From NCBI GenBank assembly GCA_031296355.1, contig JARLFX010000079.1, positions 1 through 6,902 on the forward strand: DNA of 6,902 bases. Reading direction: 5' to 3'. Of the stretch, positions 1 through 6,902 are shown piece by piece. The notes under the pieces are model-generated. The model was not told the DNA's origin and made no database searches. It saw only the letters and a list, made by a program, of their open reading frames with translations. How positions within the stretch are numbered: position 1 is the stretch's first letter; the number at the start of each line of letters is the position of its first letter. Source of the stretch: Acidobacteriaceae bacterium (GTDB lineage: Bacteria > Acidobacteriota > Terriglobia > Terriglobales > Acidobacteriaceae). A program made the translations under genes and the position numbers.

Positions 1-182
1 CACGAAGCGGTATCGCATTGCTGGCACATCATGGGAACAGAGAAGCCTTCACGCTCCCAGCTATATACATGGACACGAGTCGCTGTGGGCCGGAACTGAT
101 TCTCGTGGCTAAAACCGCAAGCCAGTTCGCAGTTCTGGCATCCAGTGCACTTGTCTGGATGGATCATTAATACTTTCGGCAT
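1..182 (-). CDS. 4Fe-4S ferredoxin-type electron-transfer subunit, 5' end only
   Basis: Reading leftward from ATG at 182, 60 codons are visible before the window edge, so the gene is incomplete. The peptide begins MPKVLMIHPDKCTGCQNCEL and carries a CxxCxxCxxxC cluster motif at C12, C15, C18 and C22, then a second CxxC (C53, C56) that opens the next cluster-binding segment. A Shine-Dalgarno GGAG (191-188) lies 5 nt before the ATG, which fixes the start. Proteins with this N-terminus are short cytoplasmic two- to four-cluster electron carriers of the HycB/CooF/DMSO-reductase-B type. The closest pattern I recall is the iron-sulfur subunit encoded beside tungsten aldehyde ferredoxin oxidoreductases. 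The partner enzyme would lie beyond the left edge, so this assignment is inference; the nearby moaA supports a pterin enzyme. It lies 129 nt downstream of the outer-membrane gene on the same strand and may be cotranscribed. Sure of the ferredoxin fold, less sure of the partner. Confidence 0.85.
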   Translation of the reverse strand, partial: MPKVLMIHPDKCTGCQNCELACGFSHENQFRPTATRVHVYSWEREGFSVPMMCQQCDTAS

Positions 183-268
183 AACTTCTCCAATACAACT
201 GGCATAACTGCTACGCACTACTCTCTGGGTAGGCAAGCGCCAGTATCCTAGCACGCCCAGAGGAGCGG

Positions 269-300
269 TGAGTACCTCAATCCGTAAACTGAGGTACTCA
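269..300 (-). terminator. Perfect 11-bp inverted repeat after the outer-membrane gene
   Basis: TGAGTACCTCA (269-279) and TGAGGTACTCA (290-300) are perfect reverse complements separated by 10 nt. On the minus strand the hairpin begins 11 nt after the stop codon of the 312-1262 gene and ends 86 nt before the iron-sulfur start codon. No U-run follows on the minus strand, so it is not a textbook intrinsic terminator. It could be an attenuating or RNA-stabilising intergenic hairpin that sets unequal expression of the two genes, or a protein operator. Confidence 0.5.
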
Positions 301-311
301 ACCGGAAACAG

Positions 312-1262
312 CTAGAAACCGTACGACATTTGGACTCCAACCTGATGACGCGCCTTGAGGTTGACACCCGGCGCGATGGTGCCGGCAACCTGGGCAACGC
401 CCACGTCGAAGTTCAACTTGTGCTTCGGACTGGGAATAATGCGGGCGCAATAGGTAAGCGTGGTTGGGATGTTGAGTTTGACGCCGCCAATATCGGCAGC
501 GCTGGTGAAACCGAACGGATGCTCCGGCTGTTGCGATGCTTCGGAACCGAAGATGATCGTGCTCGAGCTGGGGCCCTTGAATGCGAATGCGACTGCGCCG
601 AATCCGCGTGCTTGCCAGTTGGGAGCATTACCGCCCATGCCCCAGAGTTCCGCATTGGTGCCGCGAACGCCGGCGTTCAGTACAACAGCGGCAAGCGGAC
701 CAGCCTTCTTGACCGGGACGGCCTTGGTGGCAACAGCGTAGATATCACCATTGCTGCTACCGGCGTTGGTGGCCGGGTGCCATGTGAGATAGTCGCCCAC
801 GTTGCGAACACCGGTACGAGCAATAAAGCCCGTTGAAATAGCTGGAACCCAGTTATTCTTCTTGTAGTTCTCTGGAATGACGATGAACTTGGCGTTATAA
901 ATTTCAAAACCGTTCTGCCAAAGCGGACTCAGCGAAGCGTCGCCGCCGAGGTTATGGTACTCGTGGGTATAGCCCACTTCGAGACGCTTGCCAATGCCGG
1001 CTTCAATTGACGCCTCATGAAAGTCGCCGATCACGGGACCGGCATTGAAATAGTGGTAAGCGACAACAGGATGGATCTTCTGCCCTTCGGCAGATGCGGT
1101 ATAGGCCATCGGGGTAACGAACACGCCCGTCTCGCCTTCCCATCCCAAAGCCTGCGCATTTCCGGTTGCAGACGAGCCGAGCACGGCTGCCACGCCGAAC
1201 GACGCCATCAGCAGCAGGCGCCCCATGGAACGGATGTTACTTTTCTGACTTGAGTAGTTCAC
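312..1262 (-). CDS. Putative outer-membrane beta-barrel protein with signal peptide
   Basis: The protein has 316 residues and a GTG start at 1262. The start is supported by AGGTGG (complement of 1276-1271) 7 to 8 nt upstream. Met13 is a possible alternative start that would give a more compact signal peptide. Residues 13-38 form a hydrophobic leader with a likely signal peptidase I site after NAQA (A38). The mature part alternates Gly/aromatic-rich strands with polar loops (for example 46-58, 84-101, 119-129, 190-200, 218-229, 284-316) and ends in Tyr-Gly-Phe, the terminal aromatic typical of BAM-inserted outer-membrane barrels. I cannot name the family; no catalytic motif is visible. A single cysteine (C272) remains in the mature chain. 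It lies directly upstream of the iron-sulfur subunit on the same strand and has a -24/-12 element about 145 nt before its start, suggesting sigma-54 control. A porin or uptake channel for the substrate of the linked enzyme is a reasonable guess only. Confidence 0.8.
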   Translation of the reverse strand: MNYSSQKSNIRSMGRLLLMASFGVAAVLGSSATGNAQALGWEGETGVFVTPMAYTASAEGQKIHPVVAYHYFNAGPVIGDFHEASIEAGIGKRLEVGYTHEYHNLGGDASLSPLWQNGFEIYNAKFIVIPENYKKNNWVPAISTGFIARTGVRNVGDYLTWHPATNAGSSNGDIYAVATKAVPVKKAGPLAAVVLNAGVRGTNAELWGMGGNAPNWQARGFGAVAFAFKGPSSSTIIFGSEASQQPEHPFGFTSAADIGGVKLNIPTTLTYCARIIPSPKHKLNFDVGVAQVAGTIAPGVNLKARHQVGVQMSYGF

Positions 1263-1406
1263 AGATGCACCACCTCACGAAACTTAAAGATCGGCACAGG
1301 GCACGAACAACAACATTCGGCACTAACCATCCAGCTACCGGCTTCACACCAAAAGGTGACGCGGGTCTCTTCTGCTGAGGCTTTGTACTCTGGCCGTGCT
1401 TACCTA

Positions 1407-1423
1407 TGCACGTCGTATGCCAA
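1407..1423 (-). promoter_or_regulatory. Putative sigma-54 (-24/-12) promoter facing the outer-membrane gene
   Basis: On the minus strand the sequence reads TTGGCATACGACGTGCA. It has the invariant GG (1421-1420) and GC (1409-1408) separated by exactly 10 nt, plus the flanking TTGGCA and TGCA of the sigma-54 consensus. Transcription would start near 1396, leaving a leader of about 134 nt before GTG 1262. An enhancer-type motif cluster lies about 200-265 bp upstream (1620-1686). A GG-N10-GC pair alone occurs often by chance, but the extra consensus bases and the sigma-54 activator gene nearby raise confidence. Confidence 0.65.
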
Positions 1424-1474
1424 GTTGTTCATGGCCGCCGCACAATGCGCGATCTGGGTAATGTTCCGCTCCGC

Positions 1475-1506
1475 GCACGCCTTCGTGCACTGCTGCAGAT
1501 GCAGCA
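1475..1506. repeat. Two adjacent short inverted repeats
   Basis: GCACG-CCTT-CGTGC (1475-1488) is a 5-bp stem with a tetraloop. TGCTGCA-GA-TGCAGCA (1491-1506) is a perfect 7-bp inverted repeat with a 2-nt centre. They lie between the -24/-12 element at 1407-1423 and the GTCACA cluster at 1620-1686, so the sigma-54 promoter would not transcribe them. The second is better suited to a dimeric DNA-binding protein than to an RNA hairpin. No function can be assigned. Confidence 0.4.
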
Positions 1507-1565
1507 AACCGGAGTTGAAGTCCAACCATTTCAAGCTATGAGTGCAAGAAGCCGATGACGCTGCG

Positions 1566-1590
1566 CTCGCTTTGGCGAATGCAAAGAGAG
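1566..1590. repeat. Imperfect hairpin, 5+3 bp
   Basis: CTC-g-CTTTG (1566-1574) pairs with CAAAG-a-GAG (1582-1590) around a 7-nt loop, with one mismatch. No U-run follows on either strand. It may be chance or a minor regulatory hairpin. Confidence 0.25.
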
Positions 1591-1619
1591 AAAACAAAGA
1601 AGTTGATTCGCGGGAGAAA

Positions 1620-1686
1620 GCTGTCACACTTTGACGTCACAAAACGAGACAAGTGTCACAAAATGCAACTTAGTTGTGTATGTGAC
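1620..1686. promoter_or_regulatory. Cluster of GTCACA/TGTGAC sites, candidate enhancer (UAS)
   Basis: GTCACA occurs directly at 1623-1628, 1636-1641 and 1655-1660 and inverted (TGTGAC) at 1681-1686. Read on the minus strand, two copies are TTTTGTGAC and a third is AAGTGTGACA. This is close to the TTTCGTGACAA and TCTCGTGACAA repeats at 5891-5923. The cluster lies about 200-265 bp upstream of the minus-strand -24/-12 element, a normal enhancer distance for sigma-54 activators. It also contains the palindromes TGACGTCA (1632-1639) and CAACTTAGTTG (1665-1675). A CRP/FNR-like half-site reading (TCACA) cannot be excluded. Confidence 0.5.
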
Positions 1687-1723
1687 TTGGAATGCGCATG
1701 TTAGATGATTCGATTGCTTGATA

Positions 1724-1822
1724 CAAAGCCGTAGTGGGCATTGCTCGTGCCTTCGGCTGGAAGAGCTGGGAGAACGCACCGCTTCACGGGCCTACAACGA
1801 AAGAGATAAGTACAATGCTTTG
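1724..1822 (+). promoter_or_regulatory. Moco/Tuco riboswitch (Moco RNA motif) upstream of moaA
   Basis: This is a structured leader RNA just before moaA. The outer stem P1 pairs CAAAGC (1724-1729) with GCUUUG (1817-1822). P2 pairs GUGGGC (1734-1739) with GCCUAC (1790-1795), six pairs with one G-U. Inside are a hairpin GCUC (1743-1746)/GAGC (1763-1766) with an inner GCC-UUC-GGC, the unpaired conserved-looking AGAACGCACC (1771-1780), and a hairpin CCG-CUUCA-CGG (1779-1789). AACGAAAGAGAU (1796-1807) follows P2. This arrangement and the GUGGGCA, AACGCACC and GCCUAC blocks match the Moco RNA motif as I remember it. That RNA is known from moaA leaders and is thought to sense molybdenum or, when P3 is missing, tungsten cofactor. 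Which ligand applies here cannot be settled by eye. The spacing from its 3' end to the moaA start is 82 nt. Confidence 0.82.
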
Positions 1823-1823
1823 A

Positions 1824-1855
1824 GGCGAAGATACTCATTCCTCGCCGATGCGGCG
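1824..1855 (+). promoter_or_regulatory. Possible riboswitch expression platform: two competing hairpins
   Basis: Immediately after P1 of the riboswitch, GGCGA (1824-1828) can pair with UCGCC (1842-1846), while CGCCG (1843-1847) can instead pair with CGGCG (1851-1855). The two stems share 1843-1846 and exclude each other. Neither is followed by a U-run, so transcription termination is not evident. Control could act on translation or on RNA stability, but the moaA ribosome site at 1892-1896 is not obviously sequestered by either stem. Speculative. Confidence 0.3.
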
Positions 1856-1891
1856 GATGGACCTCAAATTGCAAACAGGAAACTGGTACTC

Positions 1892-1896
1892 AAGGA
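1892..1896 (+). promoter_or_regulatory. moaA ribosome-binding site that sets the start at 1905
   Basis: AAGGA lies 8 nt before ATG 1905. The in-frame upstream ATGs at 1848 and 1857 have no good Shine-Dalgarno, 1848 sits in the loop of a potential hairpin, and the extra 19 residues do not resemble a MoaA N-terminus. Confidence 0.75.
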
Positions 1897-1904
1897 TTTT
1901 GCTT

Positions 1905-2879
1905 ATGGCTCCTATCGATATTCATGGTCGCCGCATCAGCTATCTTCGGCTGTCGGTGACCGATCGCTGCAATTTGCGCTGCCAGTACTGTATGCCGGCC
2001 GAAGGAGTCCGGAAGCTGGAACACAACGATATCTTGAGCTTTGAGCAACTTCACCGCATCGCCCGTCTGGCGGTTGGCCTTGGCATCGAAAAGATCCGGA
2101 TTACCGGCGGCGAACCGTTGGTGCGCAAGGGCCTCGTCGAGTTTATTAAGAACCTCTCTGCAATCGACGGGCTGAAAGAACTTGATCTTACGACGAATGG
2201 TTTGCTGCTGCGTGAGTTCGCGGCGGACCTGCGCCGCGCCGGAGTGCAGCGGCTCAATGTAAGCCTCGATTCGCTGAAACCTGCGACCTTTTCGTCGTTG
2301 ACGCGTGGCGGCAGACTGGAAAAAGCCGAGGACGGAATTCTCGCGGCGGAAGAGGCTGGCTTTCCGCCTGTAAAAATCAACACGGTTGTAATCCGGGGAG
2401 TGAATGACAACGAGGTGCTCGATTTTGCGGACCTGACGCTAAGGACTCCTCACCAAGTCAGGTTTATCGAATACATGCCGACAAGTATCGTGCCGGGCTG
2501 GCCGTCAGCGCTGGTCACCGGAGAAGAAATACTTCAGCAAATCAGCGATGTTTATCCACTGCGGCCGCTGCCCCAGAGCGACGAGGCAGGCCCGGCAAAG
2601 CTTTTCAAGATTCCCGGAGCGTTGGGAACGATCGGAATTATTACGCCGATCTCAAGTCATTTCTGCGCGTCGTGCAATCGCATCCGCGTGACCGCTTCGG
2701 GGGTCGTGAAAGGGTGCTTGTTCGATAGCGGAGCAAGTCTGAAGCCGTATCTGGAAGGCAGCGACGACGAACTGCAAGCTGTTCTATTTGGTGCGCTGAA
2801 GAACAAACCGGATCGGCATCACTTATTGGACAGCAAAGTACATATCATGCCTTTCTCGATGTCTGAGATAGGCGGATAA
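1905..2879 (+). CDS. moaA: GTP 3',8-cyclase (radical SAM, molybdenum cofactor biosynthesis)
   Basis: MoaA converts GTP to 3',8-cyclo-7,8-dihydro-GTP, the first step of molybdopterin (Mo or W pyranopterin) synthesis, in the cytoplasm. From ATG 1905 the protein has 324 residues, a normal length for the family. The N-terminal radical-SAM [4Fe-4S] motif is CNLRCQYC (C22, C26, C29) after the typical ISYLRLSVTDR. The SAM-binding GGEP is at 68-71, and RFIEYMP at 186-192 is a family hallmark. The second, GTP-binding cluster uses C254, C257 and C271 (CxxC-x13-C), and the chain ends MSEIGG with the functional Gly-Gly tail. It is therefore intact. It stands alone without moaB, moaC, moaD or moaE in view. 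The Moco-type riboswitch in its leader implies feedback control by finished cofactor, and proximity to a probable pterin-enzyme subunit fits cofactor supply. A start at 1848 (343 residues) is the less likely alternative. Confidence 0.96.
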   Translation: MAPIDIHGRRISYLRLSVTDRCNLRCQYCMPAEGVRKLEHNDILSFEQLHRIARLAVGLGIEKIRITGGEPLVRKGLVEFIKNLSAIDGLKELDLTTNGLLLREFAADLRRAGVQRLNVSLDSLKPATFSSLTRGGRLEKAEDGILAAEEAGFPPVKINTVVIRGVNDNEVLDFADLTLRTPHQVRFIEYMPTSIVPGWPSALVTGEEILQQISDVYPLRPLPQSDEAGPAKLFKIPGALGTIGIITPISSHFCASCNRIRVTASGVVKGCLFDSGASLKPYLEGSDDELQAVLFGALKNKPDRHHLLDSKVHIMPFSMSEIGG

Positions 2880-2936
2880 TTGCCCATAGCGAGTAAGGCC
2901 TTCGCTCCCGGGATTTGGTTTAATCGGAGTAAGGAT

Positions 2937-2978
2937 ATGTGCAACACAATTGTTTCCGGCCCATGCCAGGAGAACTGA
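2937..2978 (+). CDS. Possible 13-codon leader ORF coupled to the membrane-protein gene
   Basis: ATG 2937 to TGA 2976-2978 encodes MCNTIVSGPCQEN. GGAG at 2926-2929 lies 7 nt before the ATG, as good a ribosome site as any in the window. The TGA directly abuts ATG 2979 of the next gene, and that gene's own AGGAGA (2968-2973) lies inside the last codons. This suggests translational coupling or a leader peptide. The peptide has two cysteines (C2, C10) and resembles no precursor I know, including PqqA or mycofactocin. Chance is a real possibility for so short an ORF; the evidence is only the ribosome site and the exact stop-start junction. Confidence 0.4.
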   Translation: MCNTIVSGPCQEN

Positions 2979-3371
2979 ATGCCAACACCTTCGCTCGCTA
3001 AACCCTCAGTTTCGTATGCGCGCATTGGGAGCATTCTGTTTCGGACTCTTCACCTTCTGGCCATCAGCATTCTGGTCGGAGGACACGCGTTCAACGCTCC
3101 GGCCGATCAACTGCGTCCCCTGCTCTATCTCGCAATCGTGAGCGGAGTTGGCATGGCATGGATTGAAGCATACCCTTTTTGGCAGGCTCTGTTTCAGGGC
3201 TGGGGCATTCTTGTGATGATAAAGCTGGCGCTGCTGTGCGCAATTCCATTTGCATGGAACCACCGGCTGGGGATTCTGATCGTAGTGTTGGTGATTGGAT
3301 CTGTGGGATCGCACTTACCCAAGCGGCTGCGGCATTGCTCGCCACTGCTGGGACCGGAAGCGGGCTGCTAG
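2979..3371 (+). CDS. Small four-helix integral membrane protein of unknown function
   Basis: The protein has 130 residues. The start at 2979 is supported by AGGAGA (2968-2973) 5 nt upstream and by the abutting stop of the 13-codon ORF. Four hydrophobic segments are visible at about 18-37, 46-64, 74-93 and 96-112, so it is an inner-membrane protein. Intramembrane or interfacial histidines (H25, H36, H111), the patterns RTLHLLAISILVGGH and GSVGSHLPKRLRH, and W61/E63 recall small CopD-like or haem-binding membrane proteins, but I cannot assign a family. The C-terminal tail after about residue 118 is short and holds C120 and C130. It lies 99 nt after moaA on the same strand, with no visible terminator between them, so cotranscription with moaA under the riboswitch is likely. 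Its stop is 28 nt from the stop of the convergent regulator. A role beside the pterin enzyme, such as passing electrons to the membrane, is only a guess. Confidence 0.8.
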   Translation: MPTPSLAKPSVSYARIGSILFRTLHLLAISILVGGHAFNAPADQLRPLLYLAIVSGVGMAWIEAYPFWQALFQGWGILVMIKLALLCAIPFAWNHRLGILIVVLVIGSVGSHLPKRLRHCSPLLGPEAGC

Positions 3372-3399
3372 AGCCGGACAGAGAGATTGGCGACAGTGC

Positions 3400-5400
3400 T
3401 CAGTTGGATCGGCCGGCTAATTCAGACGAACAGGGAAAAGCAGCAGCTTCTGCCGCGCCGTATTCCTTGATCTTGCGATACAAGGTATTGCGACTGATTC
3501 CCAGCGAGGCTGCGGCCTTCTGAATGTTGCCTTTATGAAAGGCTATCGCCTTGGCGATCATCGCCTGCTCCACTTCATCGAGAGGCCGTAACGGCGCAAC
3601 GGGCGAACATGGATTGGACTCGGAATCGGAACTGATCAACTCGAAGTATTCCGGTCGCAAAAGTGGATCGTCGCCGGCCAGGTTAATGGCTCTCTCGATG
3701 GCATTCTCGAGTTCACGCACATTGCCCGGCCAGGAATAACACTTCAACTTTTCCAGAAGCCCTTCGTCGATTCCCTTCGCATCGACCTTCATCTTCGCGG
3801 CAATCTTGAGGGCTAAACTTTGCGCAAGTGCCGGAATATCTTCCTGCCGCTCGCGCAAGGGCGGTATGCGAAGATTGAGTACATTGAGCCGATAGAATAG
3901 ATCCTGACGGAAGCGGCCAGCTTTCACTTCCTGCTTCAGGTCCTTCAGGGTAGCGGCGATGATGCGAATATCGATTTCGCGGTCCGCGGTGGCACCGATG
4001 CGTGTTACCTTTCGCTCTTGAATCACACGGAGCAGTTTCATCTGTGCACAGAGCGGCATATCGCCGATCTCGTCGAGGAAGAGGGTTCCACCGTTCGCGG
4101 TTTCGAACTTTCCTGCCTGGCCACCCTTTTTGGCGCCGGTAAAGGAGCCGTCCTCATAGCCGAACAATTCACTTTCCACCAGGGACTCCGGTAGCGCGGC
4201 GCAGTTGACCGCAACAAACGGACCGTTGCATCTCTGGCCGTTGAAGTGAATTGCCTGCGCAACCAGTTCCTTGCCCGTGCCGCTCTCACCTTCGATCAGC
4301 ACTGTGGACGAACTGGCGGCCGCCATTCTGGTGCGCGCCTTTAATTCGGTCATGCTGGCGCCATCGCCCACGATGTCGTCGACAGACAAGCGCGGCGCAG
4401 CGAGATAAAACTGCTTGGGAAGAGCTTTCCACTTGTTGGCAACCTCCCGAAAAGTTGCGACCGCGCCAATAACCGTGCCGCTTTCGTCCCGAAGCAGAGA
4501 AGCGGAACTTCGAATTTTTTTGCCCGCCTGACTGCAGACAATCTCTTTGTCTTCGTACTGCACACCATCCTGCAGTATCTGAAGAAGCGGGATATGCAAA
4601 CTTGTCAATTGCGTGATATGCCGTCCGCGGGCGAGCTTCGGATCGAGACCGAAAATGCTTGCTCCCTTGGAATTGATTTCCGTGACGACTCCTCTATTGT
4701 CAACAGAGACCATTCCATCGGACATGCTTTCGAGCAGAATATTGGAGTAGCGATAGGCGTTATAGAGCTTCTCAGTGGCGCGCTGCAGGCAGAGTTGATT
4801 TTCGATGGCGCCAACGGCTGCCACAACCATTCCCAAGGTGTGAACGTTGGAGTGATGATAGTCGCCGCTCAGATCGAGCACGCCCACCATTTGGCCGTCC
4901 GCATCGAAGATGGGTGAAGCGGAACACACCAGAAAGTGATTCGGCTGGCAGTAGTGTTCCGCGGCAAAAACCTGCACTGGTTTACGCTCGAAGATGGCGG
5001 TACCGATGGCGTTGGTGCCTCTGGCAGCCTCACTCCAGTTCCCTCCGGGGCATAACTCGACCTGCCGCGTAAGCGAGGTAACATCAGCATCGCCGATCAC
5101 ATCCAGAAGGAATCCGGTCTCATCGCTGAGCACCACCTGGAATCCAGTGTGCTTAACGAAGTCGTACAGCCGCTCCATCACGGGCCGCACAATTTTGACA
5201 AGATGCTGACGTTGGAAGAGGCGTTCCTTGAGGCGGGACTGATCAATGCAACCCAACTCGGGGTTAAGTGGGTCAACGCTGAGGTTGTGACATCGCTGCC
5301 AGGAACTGGCAACCTCCACGCTCAAATGGCGAACGTCGAGAGATGCCCCGCCCGTGTACTGCTGCCACGCGTTCTGAACGACAAGGTTATCCGACGGCAT
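3400..5400 (-). CDS. Sigma-54-dependent enhancer-binding activator, AcoR type (GAF-PAS-AAA+-Fis)
   Basis: The protein has 666 residues with ATG at 5400 and a modest AGGT ribosome site 6 to 7 nt upstream. Residues about 60-205 form the GAF-like sensory region of AcoR-type activators, with the signature GTNAIGTAIFERKPVQVFAAEHY (here 128-150). A PAS-like domain follows at about 215-320. The AAA+ sigma-54 interaction module spans about 340-575: Walker A GESGTGKE (371-378), sigma-54 contact loop GSFTGA (418-423), Walker B GTLFLDE (438-444), the arginine-finger region RFRQDLFYRLN (496-506) and SWPGNVREL (556-564). A Fis-type helix-turn-helix occupies about 624-646. There is no receiver domain, so it should respond directly to a small molecule; AcoR itself responds to acetoin, but specificity is not transferable. 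The contact loop has Ser where most family members have Ala (GAFTGA). Nearby -24/-12 elements and shared GTGACA sites make the outer-membrane gene and the TonB receptor likely targets. Confidence 0.93.
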   Translation of the reverse strand: MPSDNLVVQNAWQQYTGGASLDVRHLSVEVASSWQRCHNLSVDPLNPELGCIDQSRLKERLFQRQHLVKIVRPVMERLYDFVKHTGFQVVLSDETGFLLDVIGDADVTSLTRQVELCPGGNWSEAARGTNAIGTAIFERKPVQVFAAEHYCQPNHFLVCSASPIFDADGQMVGVLDLSGDYHHSNVHTLGMVVAAVGAIENQLCLQRATEKLYNAYRYSNILLESMSDGMVSVDNRGVVTEINSKGASIFGLDPKLARGRHITQLTSLHIPLLQILQDGVQYEDKEIVCSQAGKKIRSSASLLRDESGTVIGAVATFREVANKWKALPKQFYLAAPRLSVDDIVGDGASMTELKARTRMAAASSSTVLIEGESGTGKELVAQAIHFNGQRCNGPFVAVNCAALPESLVESELFGYEDGSFTGAKKGGQAGKFETANGGTLFLDEIGDMPLCAQMKLLRVIQERKVTRIGATADREIDIRIIAATLKDLKQEVKAGRFRQDLFYRLNVLNLRIPPLRERQEDIPALAQSLALKIAAKMKVDAKGIDEGLLEKLKCYSWPGNVRELENAIERAINLAGDDPLLRPEYFELISSDSESNPCSPVAPLRPLDEVEQAMIAKAIAFHKGNIQKAAASLGISRNTLYRKIKEYGAAEAAAFPCSSELAGRSN

Positions 5401-5457
5401 GTGTCTACCTGAGAGCGCTAAACCTATAGAGTATCTTTCGCAAAGCGTATGTTATAC

Positions 5458-5523
5458 GGTGATACCCGTCACGTTGGCCTGATATGCAAGTTGTATCGAG
5501 GCATAGGTGATACAGGGAAAGGA
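5458..5523 (+). repeat. GGTGATAC direct repeat near the regulator's start
   Basis: GGTGATAC occurs at 5458-5465 and 5516-5523, 58 bp apart. Between them lies GTCACG (5468-5473, reading CGTGAC on the minus strand), related to the GTGACA sites elsewhere. The first copy and GTCACG form a short GTGA/TCAC inverted repeat (5459-5472). They lie 58-123 bp upstream of the regulator start and 184-252 bp upstream of the -24/-12 element at 5707, so they could serve autoregulation or act as an enhancer. Weak evidence. Confidence 0.3.
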
Positions 5524-5706
5524 GATAGGGCACTATTGGATTTGCCGGCACACCTACTCAAACCAAGGAAGGTGGCTGTCGCTGCGGTGAAACCACTCAT
5601 ACTTCGACTACATCTCTCGCGATCAAGCGACCATAGGCTCTGCCCAGAATGCTACGGCATATATCTATCAAACGCTAAAAAAAGAAGTTATATGGTGTGC
5701 ATCCAC

Positions 5707-5723
5707 TTGGCATAGTTCCTGCA
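5707..5723 (+). promoter_or_regulatory. Putative sigma-54 promoter without an obvious adjacent gene
   Basis: TTGGCATAGTTCCTGCA has GG (5709-5710) and GC (5721-5722) exactly 10 nt apart, with the TTGGCA and TGCA flanks of the consensus. It shares its first eight bases with the element at 1423-1407. An IHF-like sequence (TATCAAACGCTAA, 5666-5678, 12 of 13 to consensus) lies about 30 bp upstream, followed by a run of seven A. Transcription would begin near 5734; the next clear gene starts at 6277. Confidence 0.55.
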
Positions 5724-5890
5724 TTCATATATAGATTTCGCACGTTATCCTCCATTAGAATCAGGAGTAGCCAGGACCTGACGAGGACGAGTATTTCCGG
5801 TAGGTCCGTTTTGTTCGAGATCACGATGGACAGCGCGCAAGCTGTTCTCTCTATAGCTAATTGGGACAGCCGGCATCTGGCGAAGTTGTT

Positions 5891-5923
5891 CCATTTCGTG
5901 ACAACCGCCCCATCTCGTGACAA
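5891..5923 (+). promoter_or_regulatory. Tandem 14-bp repeat, candidate enhancer sites for the sigma-54 activator
   Basis: CCATTTCGTGACAA (5891-5904) is repeated as CCATCTCGTGACAA (5910-5923), 13 of 14 identical with a 19-bp period. The first copy also forms a loose TTGT...ACAA inverted repeat (5886-5904). The pair lies about 211-243 bp upstream of the perfect -24/-12 element at 6132, a usual position for activator binding. The core GTGACA is shared with the cluster at 1620-1686. Confidence 0.6.
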
Positions 5924-6131
5924 ATAAATGGGACGGGAAGACCGGCCCCTCACCTGCACTCCAACTTCTCGTGCATCTGGTAGCGCTGGCCGATACACTC
6001 TCGCCGCAAGGCAATTGAGACCTGTAGGCCATTTGTTTTCAATCCATTATGACGACCTTACTCAGATTGCCCCTGTCGTCCCAGAGTATTCCGCACCTGT
6101 ACCGATGAATCCTTTTGCTGACAAACCAACG

Positions 6132-6148
6132 TTGGCACGGCGCTTGCA
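6132..6148 (+). promoter_or_regulatory. Sigma-54 (-24/-12) promoter of the TonB receptor gene
   Basis: TTGGCACGGCGCTTGCA matches the sigma-54 consensus TGGCACG-N4-TTGCA at every defined base, with GG at 6134-6135 and GC at 6146-6147. Transcription should start near 6159, giving a leader of about 117 nt before ATG 6277. The strongest promoter call in the window. Confidence 0.9.
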
Positions 6149-6249
6149 ATGTTGTTATTGCGTGCACCACAGCATTCCGGCGAAACCAGCGCACGTTGAC
6201 CGGTTCAGCATTGGCGCGCATTCACCCACGGCTTGATCGCCATCATTTC

Positions 6250-6269
6250 AGGAGGAATTCCAGGACGGA
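6250..6269 (+). promoter_or_regulatory. Ribosome-binding region of the TonB receptor with a displaced strong SD
   Basis: A full AGGAGG (6250-6255) lies 21 nt before ATG 6277, too far for direct use, and overlaps the palindrome GGAATTCC (6254-6261). The usable site is the weaker GGA at 6267-6269, 7 nt before the ATG. No alternative in-frame start exists between them. Confidence 0.5.
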
Positions 6270-6276
6270 AACATTT

Positions 6277-6902
6277 ATGAAAAAACATTTGTTTTTGATT
6301 TTTGCAATTCTACTCGCTTCCCTTTCTTCGTTCGCGCAGGACACCGCGAGTACGTGCTCAATAACCGGCATCGTAAAGGATCCAAATCAGGCGGTGCTTG
6401 CAAACACCCAGGTCACCCTCACGAATTTGGCTACCAAGGCAAAGATAACTGCCACGACTAATGGACAGGGGCTTTACCTGTTCGCGCCCCTGCAACCCGG
6501 CAGCTACTCGGTTGCTGTCGCGGCCACCGGGTTTGAGCCAAGTGCGAGCGGCGTGCTGAGGGTGGCGATAGGTCAAAATCTCCACTTCGATATCTCTCTG
6601 CAGCTAGCAGGAACCACGGAGACTGTAAGCGTCTCGGCCGGATCATTCGAGAACGCCTATCGCGTGGATACCCTGCAGCCAGCTACGCCATTAGGCATAA
6701 CACCTATCGTGAACCTTCCTTATACGATCAATGTAATTTCGCGCCAGTTGATCGACGATACGATGTCGAGAAACTTCAAGCAAGCCTCCAAGTATCTTCC
6801 CCTGGTCTCATTCCAGGAGATGCAGGGATCCGAGGTACTGCGTCCGGAAACGCGCGGAATGCAGGGAACCAACATGCAGGGCGACCGCATGGATGGAATG
6901 GG
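6277..6902 (+). CDS. TonB-dependent receptor with carboxypeptidase-regulatory-like domain, N-terminal part
   Basis: Starting at ATG 6277, 208 codons are visible and the gene continues beyond the right edge without a stop. Residues 1-20 are a signal peptide (MKKHLFLIFAILLASLSSFA, cleavage before Q21). Residues about 28-110 form a carboxypeptidase-regulatory-like beta-sandwich: SITGIVKDPNQAVLANTQV, then TTNGQGLYLFAPLQPGSYSV and TGFEP. From about 142 the plug domain of TonB-dependent receptors begins (NLPYTINVISRQLIDD; then LRPETRGMQGTNMQGDRMDG at 188-207). Such proteins import large or scarce substrates (siderophores, vitamins, metals, glycans) through the outer membrane using TonB energy. The substrate cannot be told from this part. 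The plug is methionine-rich (M182, M195, M200, M205, M208). The sigma-54 promoter and tandem upstream sites place it under an enhancer-binding activator, most simply the AcoR-like neighbour. The Oar-like class of large acidobacterial receptors is an alternative subfamily. Confidence 0.92.
   Translation, partial: MKKHLFLIFAILLASLSSFAQDTASTCSITGIVKDPNQAVLANTQVTLTNLATKAKITATTNGQGLYLFAPLQPGSYSVAVAATGFEPSASGVLRVAIGQNLHFDISLQLAGTTETVSVSAGSFENAYRVDTLQPATPLGITPIVNLPYTINVISRQLIDDTMSRNFKQASKYLPLVSFQEMQGSEVLRPETRGMQGTNMQGDRMDGM

Follow-up and report, generated by a model that had tools for sequence, protein, structure and literature searches.

How far does the reach of a sigma-54 activator extend within its own neighborhood, and which genes would it switch on? 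The question is raised by a 6,902-nucleotide stretch of an Acidobacteriaceae bacterium (contig JARLFX010000079.1, positions 1 to 6,902, hereafter the window), in which an activator gene is flanked by several -24/-12 promoter elements. A preliminary description made from the letters alone proposed a local sigma-54 regulon that joins an outer-membrane/iron-sulfur operon with a TonB receptor, and this is the best reading after the analysis presented here. Judged from its sequence, the window likely holds a local sigma-54 regulon in which an AorR-like activator with GAF and PAS domains drives the genes of a DUF3034-type barrel, a ferredoxin, and a TonB-type receptor. The promoter elements and the inverted repeats that are candidate upstream activating sequences (UASs) are the following.

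1407..1423, minus strand: -24/-12 element of the DUF3034-ferredoxin operon, TTGGCATACGACGTGCA, score 16.2, composite match
1635..1651, minus strand: inverted repeat, candidate UAS unit 2 of the DUF3034 promoter, TGTCTCGTTTTGTGACG
1654..1670, minus strand: inverted repeat, candidate UAS unit 1 of the DUF3034 promoter, AGTTGCATTTTGTGACA, 19 bp from unit 2
5707..5723, plus strand: third -24/-12 element, TTGGCATAGTTCCTGCA, without UAS, score 17.4
5887..5903, plus strand: inverted repeat, candidate UAS unit 1 of the receptor promoter, TGTTCCATTTCGTGACA
5906..5922, plus strand: inverted repeat, candidate UAS unit 2 of the receptor promoter, CGCCCCATCTCGTGACA, 19 bp from unit 1
6132..6148, plus strand: -24/-12 element of the receptor gene, full consensus, TTGGCACGGCGCTTGCA, score 20.3, composite match

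The preliminary description had placed all three -24/-12 elements correctly, each on its proper strand, and no other strong element of this kind occurs in the window. With a -24/-12 scoring matrix, the runner-up scores 9.1, and the three sites at 16.2 or more compare with a mean of 0.052 in 500 dinucleotide shuffles, none of which held three or more. The GTGACA-type sites that had been noted upstream of two elements are also present (5898 and 5917 on the plus strand; 1659, 1640, and 1627 on the minus strand); they lie 204-236 bp ahead of the start of the -24 box and are oriented like their promoter. These motifs make up the right halves of 17-bp inverted repeats that follow the pattern TGTYNC-N5-GNGACA imperfectly; one of the four window units matches this consensus in full. 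The two units lie 245/226 bp from the -24 box at the receptor promoter and 247/228 bp at the DUF3034 promoter.

A chance resemblance without function would be barely plausible. It could draw on the fact that GTGAC[AG] is common by itself (nine in the window versus 6.6 ± 2.5 in shuffles), for which reason plain counting of GTGACA was rejected as a signal, and on strict -24/-12 counts that are at chance level in three relatives. The shuffle controls for the combined arrangement speak against it, as does the genome scan described below. Not one of 500 shuffles had a strong -24/-12 element with two GTGAC[AG] sites 100-300 bp upstream, and the composite of a -24/-12 element with one inverted-repeat unit, a pattern formulated from the window and G338 sites after these were known, matches twice in the window and never in 200 shuffles.

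The third element fared differently. No repeat pair lies upstream of 5707 (shuffle P = 1.0), and it was rejected as a regulon member, which reduces the proposed three-element regulon to the elements at 1407 and 6132 with their repeat pairs. The 5707 element, which lies 570 bp before the receptor gene, is probably outside this regulon; perhaps it serves as a second start, or for a small RNA under another activator.

The elements are set among six genes.

1..182, minus strand: 4Fe-4S ferredoxin-like protein (Fer4 match), start only, cut by the contig end
312..1262, minus strand: DUF3034-type protein of 316 residues, predicted outer-membrane beta-barrel (homologues, structure model), first gene of the operon
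1905..2879, plus strand: MoaA, GTP 3',8-cyclase of pterin-cofactor synthesis (TIGR02666, 357 bits, cut-off 284), divergent from the operon
2979..3371, plus strand: small membrane-type protein of 130 residues, without a Pfam family
3400..5400, minus strand: sigma-54 activator of 666 residues, GAF-PAS-AAA+-Fis (Pfam), with a GSFTGA loop
6277..6902, plus strand: TonB-dependent-receptor-like protein (CarboxypepD_reg, 66.9 bits, and the start of a plug), cut by the contig end

The activator is what it had been taken for. Its AAA+ sigma-54 interaction domain (PF00158) scores 231.6 bits at a cut-off of 20.2, and GAF (PF01590), PAS (PF00989), and a Fis-type helix-turn-helix (PF02954) are all above their cut-offs. 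The GAFTGA loop is present as the variant GSFTGA, which among the matches listed is shared by 23 of the nearest 27 proteins (P0121-P0147, the window's own included); two have GAFTGA, and in the remaining two the loop was not matched by the expression used. The protein stays under the NCBIfam cut-offs for PrdR (374 of 795 bits), DhaR (369 of 551), PrpR (342.5 of 499), and NorR (318 of 476). Searches at E ≤ 1e-150 in overlapping genome samples (2/200, 3/397, 4/396, 3/150, 2/80, and 2/300 genomes matching) returned seven distinct genomes, with identities of 70% in G338, 51% in G001, G002, and G785, and 41-43% in G480, G517, and G632. The sigma-54 DNA-binding domain was found in all four relatives checked. 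At the laxer threshold of 1e-80, activator matches occur in 7 of 16 genomes with DUF3034, mostly in the AAA+ part only. Nine plasmid records carry activators, all at 36-37%, and no activator relative was confirmed in viral contigs. Three composite matches in viral contigs, with none of 13 query proteins encoded alongside them in the DNA available, were taken as chance.

The scan of relatives that the preliminary description had suggested spoke for the regulon in G338. The gene order there is Cys-rich protein, promoter, aldehyde ferredoxin oxidoreductase (AOR) gene AOR1, ThiF/MoeB-like protein, activator, small membrane protein, two MoeA, MoaA, promoter, ferredoxin, AOR2. The succession activator, small membrane protein, MoaA, promoter, ferredoxin is common to both loci; the window differs in having no MoeA genes, DUF3034 before the ferredoxin, and the receptor in the place of AOR1. 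The strict pattern TTGGCAYR-N5-TGCA occurs twice in 2.7 Mb of G338 (reversed-pattern control: 0), both times before AOR genes near the activator. These are the only AOR genes of that genome (two PF01314 matches above the cut-off, both at this locus), and both encode AFOR_N and AFOR_C domains. The TCGTGACA pair was found once in G338, 220 bp upstream of one AOR promoter, and not in G001, G002, or G785. Both G338 promoters carry tandem repeats at 19 bp, located 229/210 and 225/206 bp upstream, so that across four promoters in two genomes the unit spacing is 19 bp in 4/4 and unit 1 lies 245, 247, 229, and 225 bp from the -24 box. Of the 387 genomes sampled from the order, only G338 contains the composite module, in two copies; the other 386 lack it. 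A score for the repeat pair, devised after the sites were known and compared with 300 mononucleotide shuffles each, gave P values of 0.01 (window receptor), 0.02 (window DUF3034), 0 and 0.003 (G338), 0 (G001), 0 (G785), 0.04 (G002), and 0.09 (Edaphobacter).

Could the sites belong to another enhancer-binding protein of the genome that acts in trans, while the neighboring activator regulates something else? The other enhancer-binding proteins of the window's own genome lie outside the data examined, which leaves room for such a protein. This reading is nevertheless very improbable, as the module was found only in the sampled genome of the order that has a close (70%) activator relative, and near that activator. 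Moreover, the half-sites differ between two groups (two only) that differ in the recognition helix, which reads LGISRNTLYRK in the window and G338 and LGIARNTLYRK in G001, G002, and G785. Sigma-54 control by the window's activator is thus supported by the geometry, by the rarity of the module in G338 and its order, by the gene order, and by half-sites that differ where the helix differs, in these two groups.

From this layout we infer the following course. Dimers of the activator would bind the two tandem inverted repeats, 19 bp apart, through the Fis-type helix-turn-helix. Bound ~225-247 bp upstream, the activator would loop to the sigma-54 RNA polymerase at the -24/-12 element and spend ATP to open the polymerase complex. 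One promoter would serve the DUF3034 barrel and the ferredoxin, the other the TonB-type receptor. The ferredoxin is 76% identical to the one before AOR2 in G338 and 78% identical to the one that precedes AOR in Edaphobacter aggregans, and the window MoaA is 71% identical to the G338 MoaA, which is divergent from ferredoxin-AOR2. By this gene order, the ferredoxin most likely feeds an AOR located beyond the contig end. The pterin enzyme that the preliminary description had expected is thereby refined to an AOR as the most likely candidate. Aldehyde oxidation emerges as the theme because the relatives carry aldehyde-oxidizing enzymes. The signal read by the GAF and PAS domains is probably an aldehyde or an aldehyde-yielding compound.

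The place of the receptor in this regulon can be questioned. Its first 208 residues are encoded in the window, and the barrel part would lie beyond it; the Plug domain scores 23.6 bits, slightly under the cut-off of 23.9. An unlikely alternative holds that the activator controls the aldehyde-oxidation operon only and that the receptor promoter either answers to a different activator or is left over from an AOR1-type promoter that once occupied this position, as one does in G338. The corresponding side of the G338 activator has a module that would drive AOR1 instead of a receptor, and a further receptor with repeats at its promoter was not found; the -24/-12 element before a CarboxypepD-type gene in G785 is without them. 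The receptor promoter of the window, however, combines the full -24/-12 consensus with a repeat pair spaced as at the DUF3034 promoter, and the receptor gene starts 129 bp downstream of the 6132-6148 element. The G785 site is a strict -24/-12 match (L042, G785:C348:3218) that precedes, by 320 bp, a gene whose product has a CarboxypepD-like domain, as does the window receptor.

The first protein of the operon has no Pfam match at 1e-3. Its homologues, 61-92% identical among the best 120 of 1019, include some that carry PF11231 or are named DUF3034. A structure model from a 112-row alignment reached a pLDDT (predicted local distance difference test) of 81.7 with 12 long strands; it supersedes an earlier model from 18 sequences, which was too poor (pLDDT 59). 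Among the matches listed, the model's counterparts in the PDB are outer-membrane barrels, and the protein is accordingly modeled as an outer-membrane beta-barrel. A sequence search of the PDB gave no match at E 10, and no function for DUF3034 was found in the literature searched. The longest-contig sizes agree between the DUF3034 and activator match lists for P0014/P0128 (27396) and P0063/P0150 (12061), which suggests that in two additional metagenome lineages DUF3034 and the activator lie on one contig.

The more distant relatives retain parts of this arrangement. In both G001 and G002, a -24/-12 element and DUF3034 come after the activator, and in G785 a -24/-12 element and directly the enzyme, without DUF3034; the elements score 15.4, 18.2, and 17.6 in G001, G002, and G785, respectively. 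The upstream repeats of G001 and G785 read TGCTCC-N5-GGAGCA, each joined by an imperfect further copy at a distance of 25 bp, and G002 has three copies of TGTTCC-N5-TGMGCA. Arm length and the 5-bp spacer are as in the window and the half-site is different; the form TGTYNC-N5-GNGACA was not found in these 51% relatives by the expressions tried. The G001 enzyme is an NF045668 molybdopterin-dependent aldehyde oxidoreductase (1531 bits, cut-off 1100), and the G785 enzyme is 79% identical to it. In G517, G480, and G632, an activator relative is divergent from an AOR1-like gene (68%). DUF3034 itself was compared across 16 loci from named genomes: a -24/-12 element (≥14) lies within 600 bp upstream in 2/2 loci with an adjoining activator versus 0/14 others (Fisher P 0.008), the 14 including L011 and L014, which have partial, weaker activator-like matches.

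Several observations weigh against the proposed regulon. The same half-site occurs in only one other genome, G338, which is not independent for its degenerate second site because the composite was derived from the window and G338 sites. The G338 stretch read has no DUF3034 or receptor match, and the evidence for receptor control therefore comes from the window alone. Strict -24/-12 matches number five in G785, three in G001, and one in G002, against one, two, and two for the reversed control; these counts are uninformative, since they show no excess. The sole strict match of G002 (19.8, the top of its stretch) sits inside the activator gene. The repeats of G002, at 405-450 bp upstream, are weak (P 0.04), and the target there is an FAD (flavin adenine dinucleotide)/Fe-S protein with molybdopterin oxidoreductases, not an aldehyde oxidoreductase. 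For the activator/AOR pairs of G517, G480, and G632, the surrounding 19 kb contain no -24/-12 element of at least 12.5. At a distance from its activator, G001 has a ferredoxin-AOR fragment (41%) that stays under the cut-off of the family. A -24/-12 element accompanies the ferredoxin-AOR of Edaphobacter, without a clear repeat pair (P 0.09), and the activator match there is partial (40%) and ~11 kb distant. Concerning the DUF3034 comparison, a first, stricter expression (C or T in front) missed the G-initial DUF3034 promoters of G001 and G002 and over the 16 loci matched only a site in L005, 627 bp upstream; the 14-bit and 600-bp limits were fixed after this outcome.

A possible, if tentative, wider picture is that the activator lineage kept its promoter layout while the enzyme switched between AFOR and molybdenum types, the half-site changing with the recognition helix. 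The lineage of the window would have added the TonB receptor and the DUF3034 barrel, giving one switch for taking up and oxidizing a substrate that yields an aldehyde, or for importing the enzyme's metal.

Metal is also at the center of a further reading, that the activator senses the supply of molybdenum, tungsten, or cofactor and that the regulon provides for a metal enzyme (metallophore receptor, MoaA, enzyme). MoaA in the window and MoaA and MoeA in G338 do lie near the activator, the receptor plug resembles, at an E value of only 0.03, the metallophore receptors CntO and FoxA, and strict -24/-12 sites of G001 precede MoaA and a molybdopterin oxidoreductase in the vicinity of a second activator. 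We nonetheless hold this to be improbable: the window MoaA points away from the DUF3034 promoter, the similarity to CntO and FoxA in the PDB is not significant, and the common activity is aldehyde oxidation, through AOR in G338, G517, G480, and G632 and the molybdenum type in G001 and G785, with G002 differing.

Some observations stand beside these arguments. Two of the three strict G001 sites (L038 and L041, at G001:C37:75823 and 77519) precede MoaA and a formate-dehydrogenase/thiosulfate-reductase-like gene ~4 kb from the second G001 activator (39%, L024), a similar logic again; in the tree this activator has a very long branch and was left unplaced. The Edaphobacter aggregans ferredoxin-AOR corresponds to L011:373-2697, with DUF3034 at 9923-10846 of the same 21-kb stretch. 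The small membrane-type protein at 2979-3371 (plus strand) has a 59% identical counterpart adjoining the activator in G338. The MoaA start codon at 1905 is our choice within a frame that is open from 1848. No tRNA, Rfam family, or sigma-70 promoter was found in the window (sigma-70 scan: 0 versus 3.9 in shuffles).

How does the proposed regulon relate to what is known? A regulon of sigma-54 and aldehyde ferredoxin oxidoreductase in Acidobacteriota was not found in the literature searched, with subscription papers mostly outside the search. The accessible parts of three publications have no mention of the terms looked for: "ferredoxin oxidoreductase" or "aldehyde" in a Geobacter RpoN study (PMC2725144), "ferredoxin oxidoreductase" or "acidobacteri" in a 2025 sigma-54 survey (PMC12316311), and "AOR" or "tungst" in the Desulfovibrio regulome (PMC4641369). 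For a phylum without such a regulon in the literature searched, the window supplies an activator that lends itself to testing, together with a probable binding site and proposed target genes. DUF3034 gains a hypothesis for its role, as an outer-membrane channel of pterin-enzyme operons, and the locus offers a possible case in which regulator and promoter layout are retained while the downstream enzyme is exchanged.

As far as the accessible portions of the sources go, the nearest precedent is AorR of Clostridium and Geosporobacter, an enhancer-binding protein predicted to activate aor with a sigma-54 promoter in an aor-moaD regulon (PMC6615313). The system had been called little described; activator control of AOR is already known from Clostridium as a prediction, and the Acidobacteriota variant is new. 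As with AorR, an enhancer-binding protein and a sigma-54 promoter occur at an AOR gene in the relative G338; for the window, the AOR would lie beyond the contig end. The AorR UAS has an inverted TGT and ACA 10-12 bp apart (PMC6615313); in the two genomes compared here, TGT-N11-ACA is exact in three of eight units (one of four in the window, two of four in G338) and present at least once at three of four promoters, the DUF3034 promoter being without it. The systems differ in phylum, in an operon that begins with an outer-membrane barrel, in a TonB-type receptor with the same module, and in the linked pterin gene (MoaA here, MoaD there).

With regard to the enzymes, the ferredoxin-AOR succession of G338 and Edaphobacter resembles an AFOR-type AOR with its ferredoxin partner, the differences being that the AOR expected here would lie outside the window and that G338 shows no DUF3034 ahead of its ferredoxin. 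The NF045668 enzyme stands behind 51% activators and a -24/-12 element in G001 and G785; its Pfam domains differ from AFOR, and it is not in the window. The nearest experimentally tested system, within the same portions of the literature, is AdhR of Clostridium beijerinckii, a GAF-PAS enhancer-binding protein that acts through several UASs on sigma-54 promoters of aldehyde/alcohol metabolism, as seen by electrophoretic mobility shift assays and mutants. Unlike the system of the window, AdhR uses three UAS sites and has alcohol dehydrogenase targets (PMC7017808).

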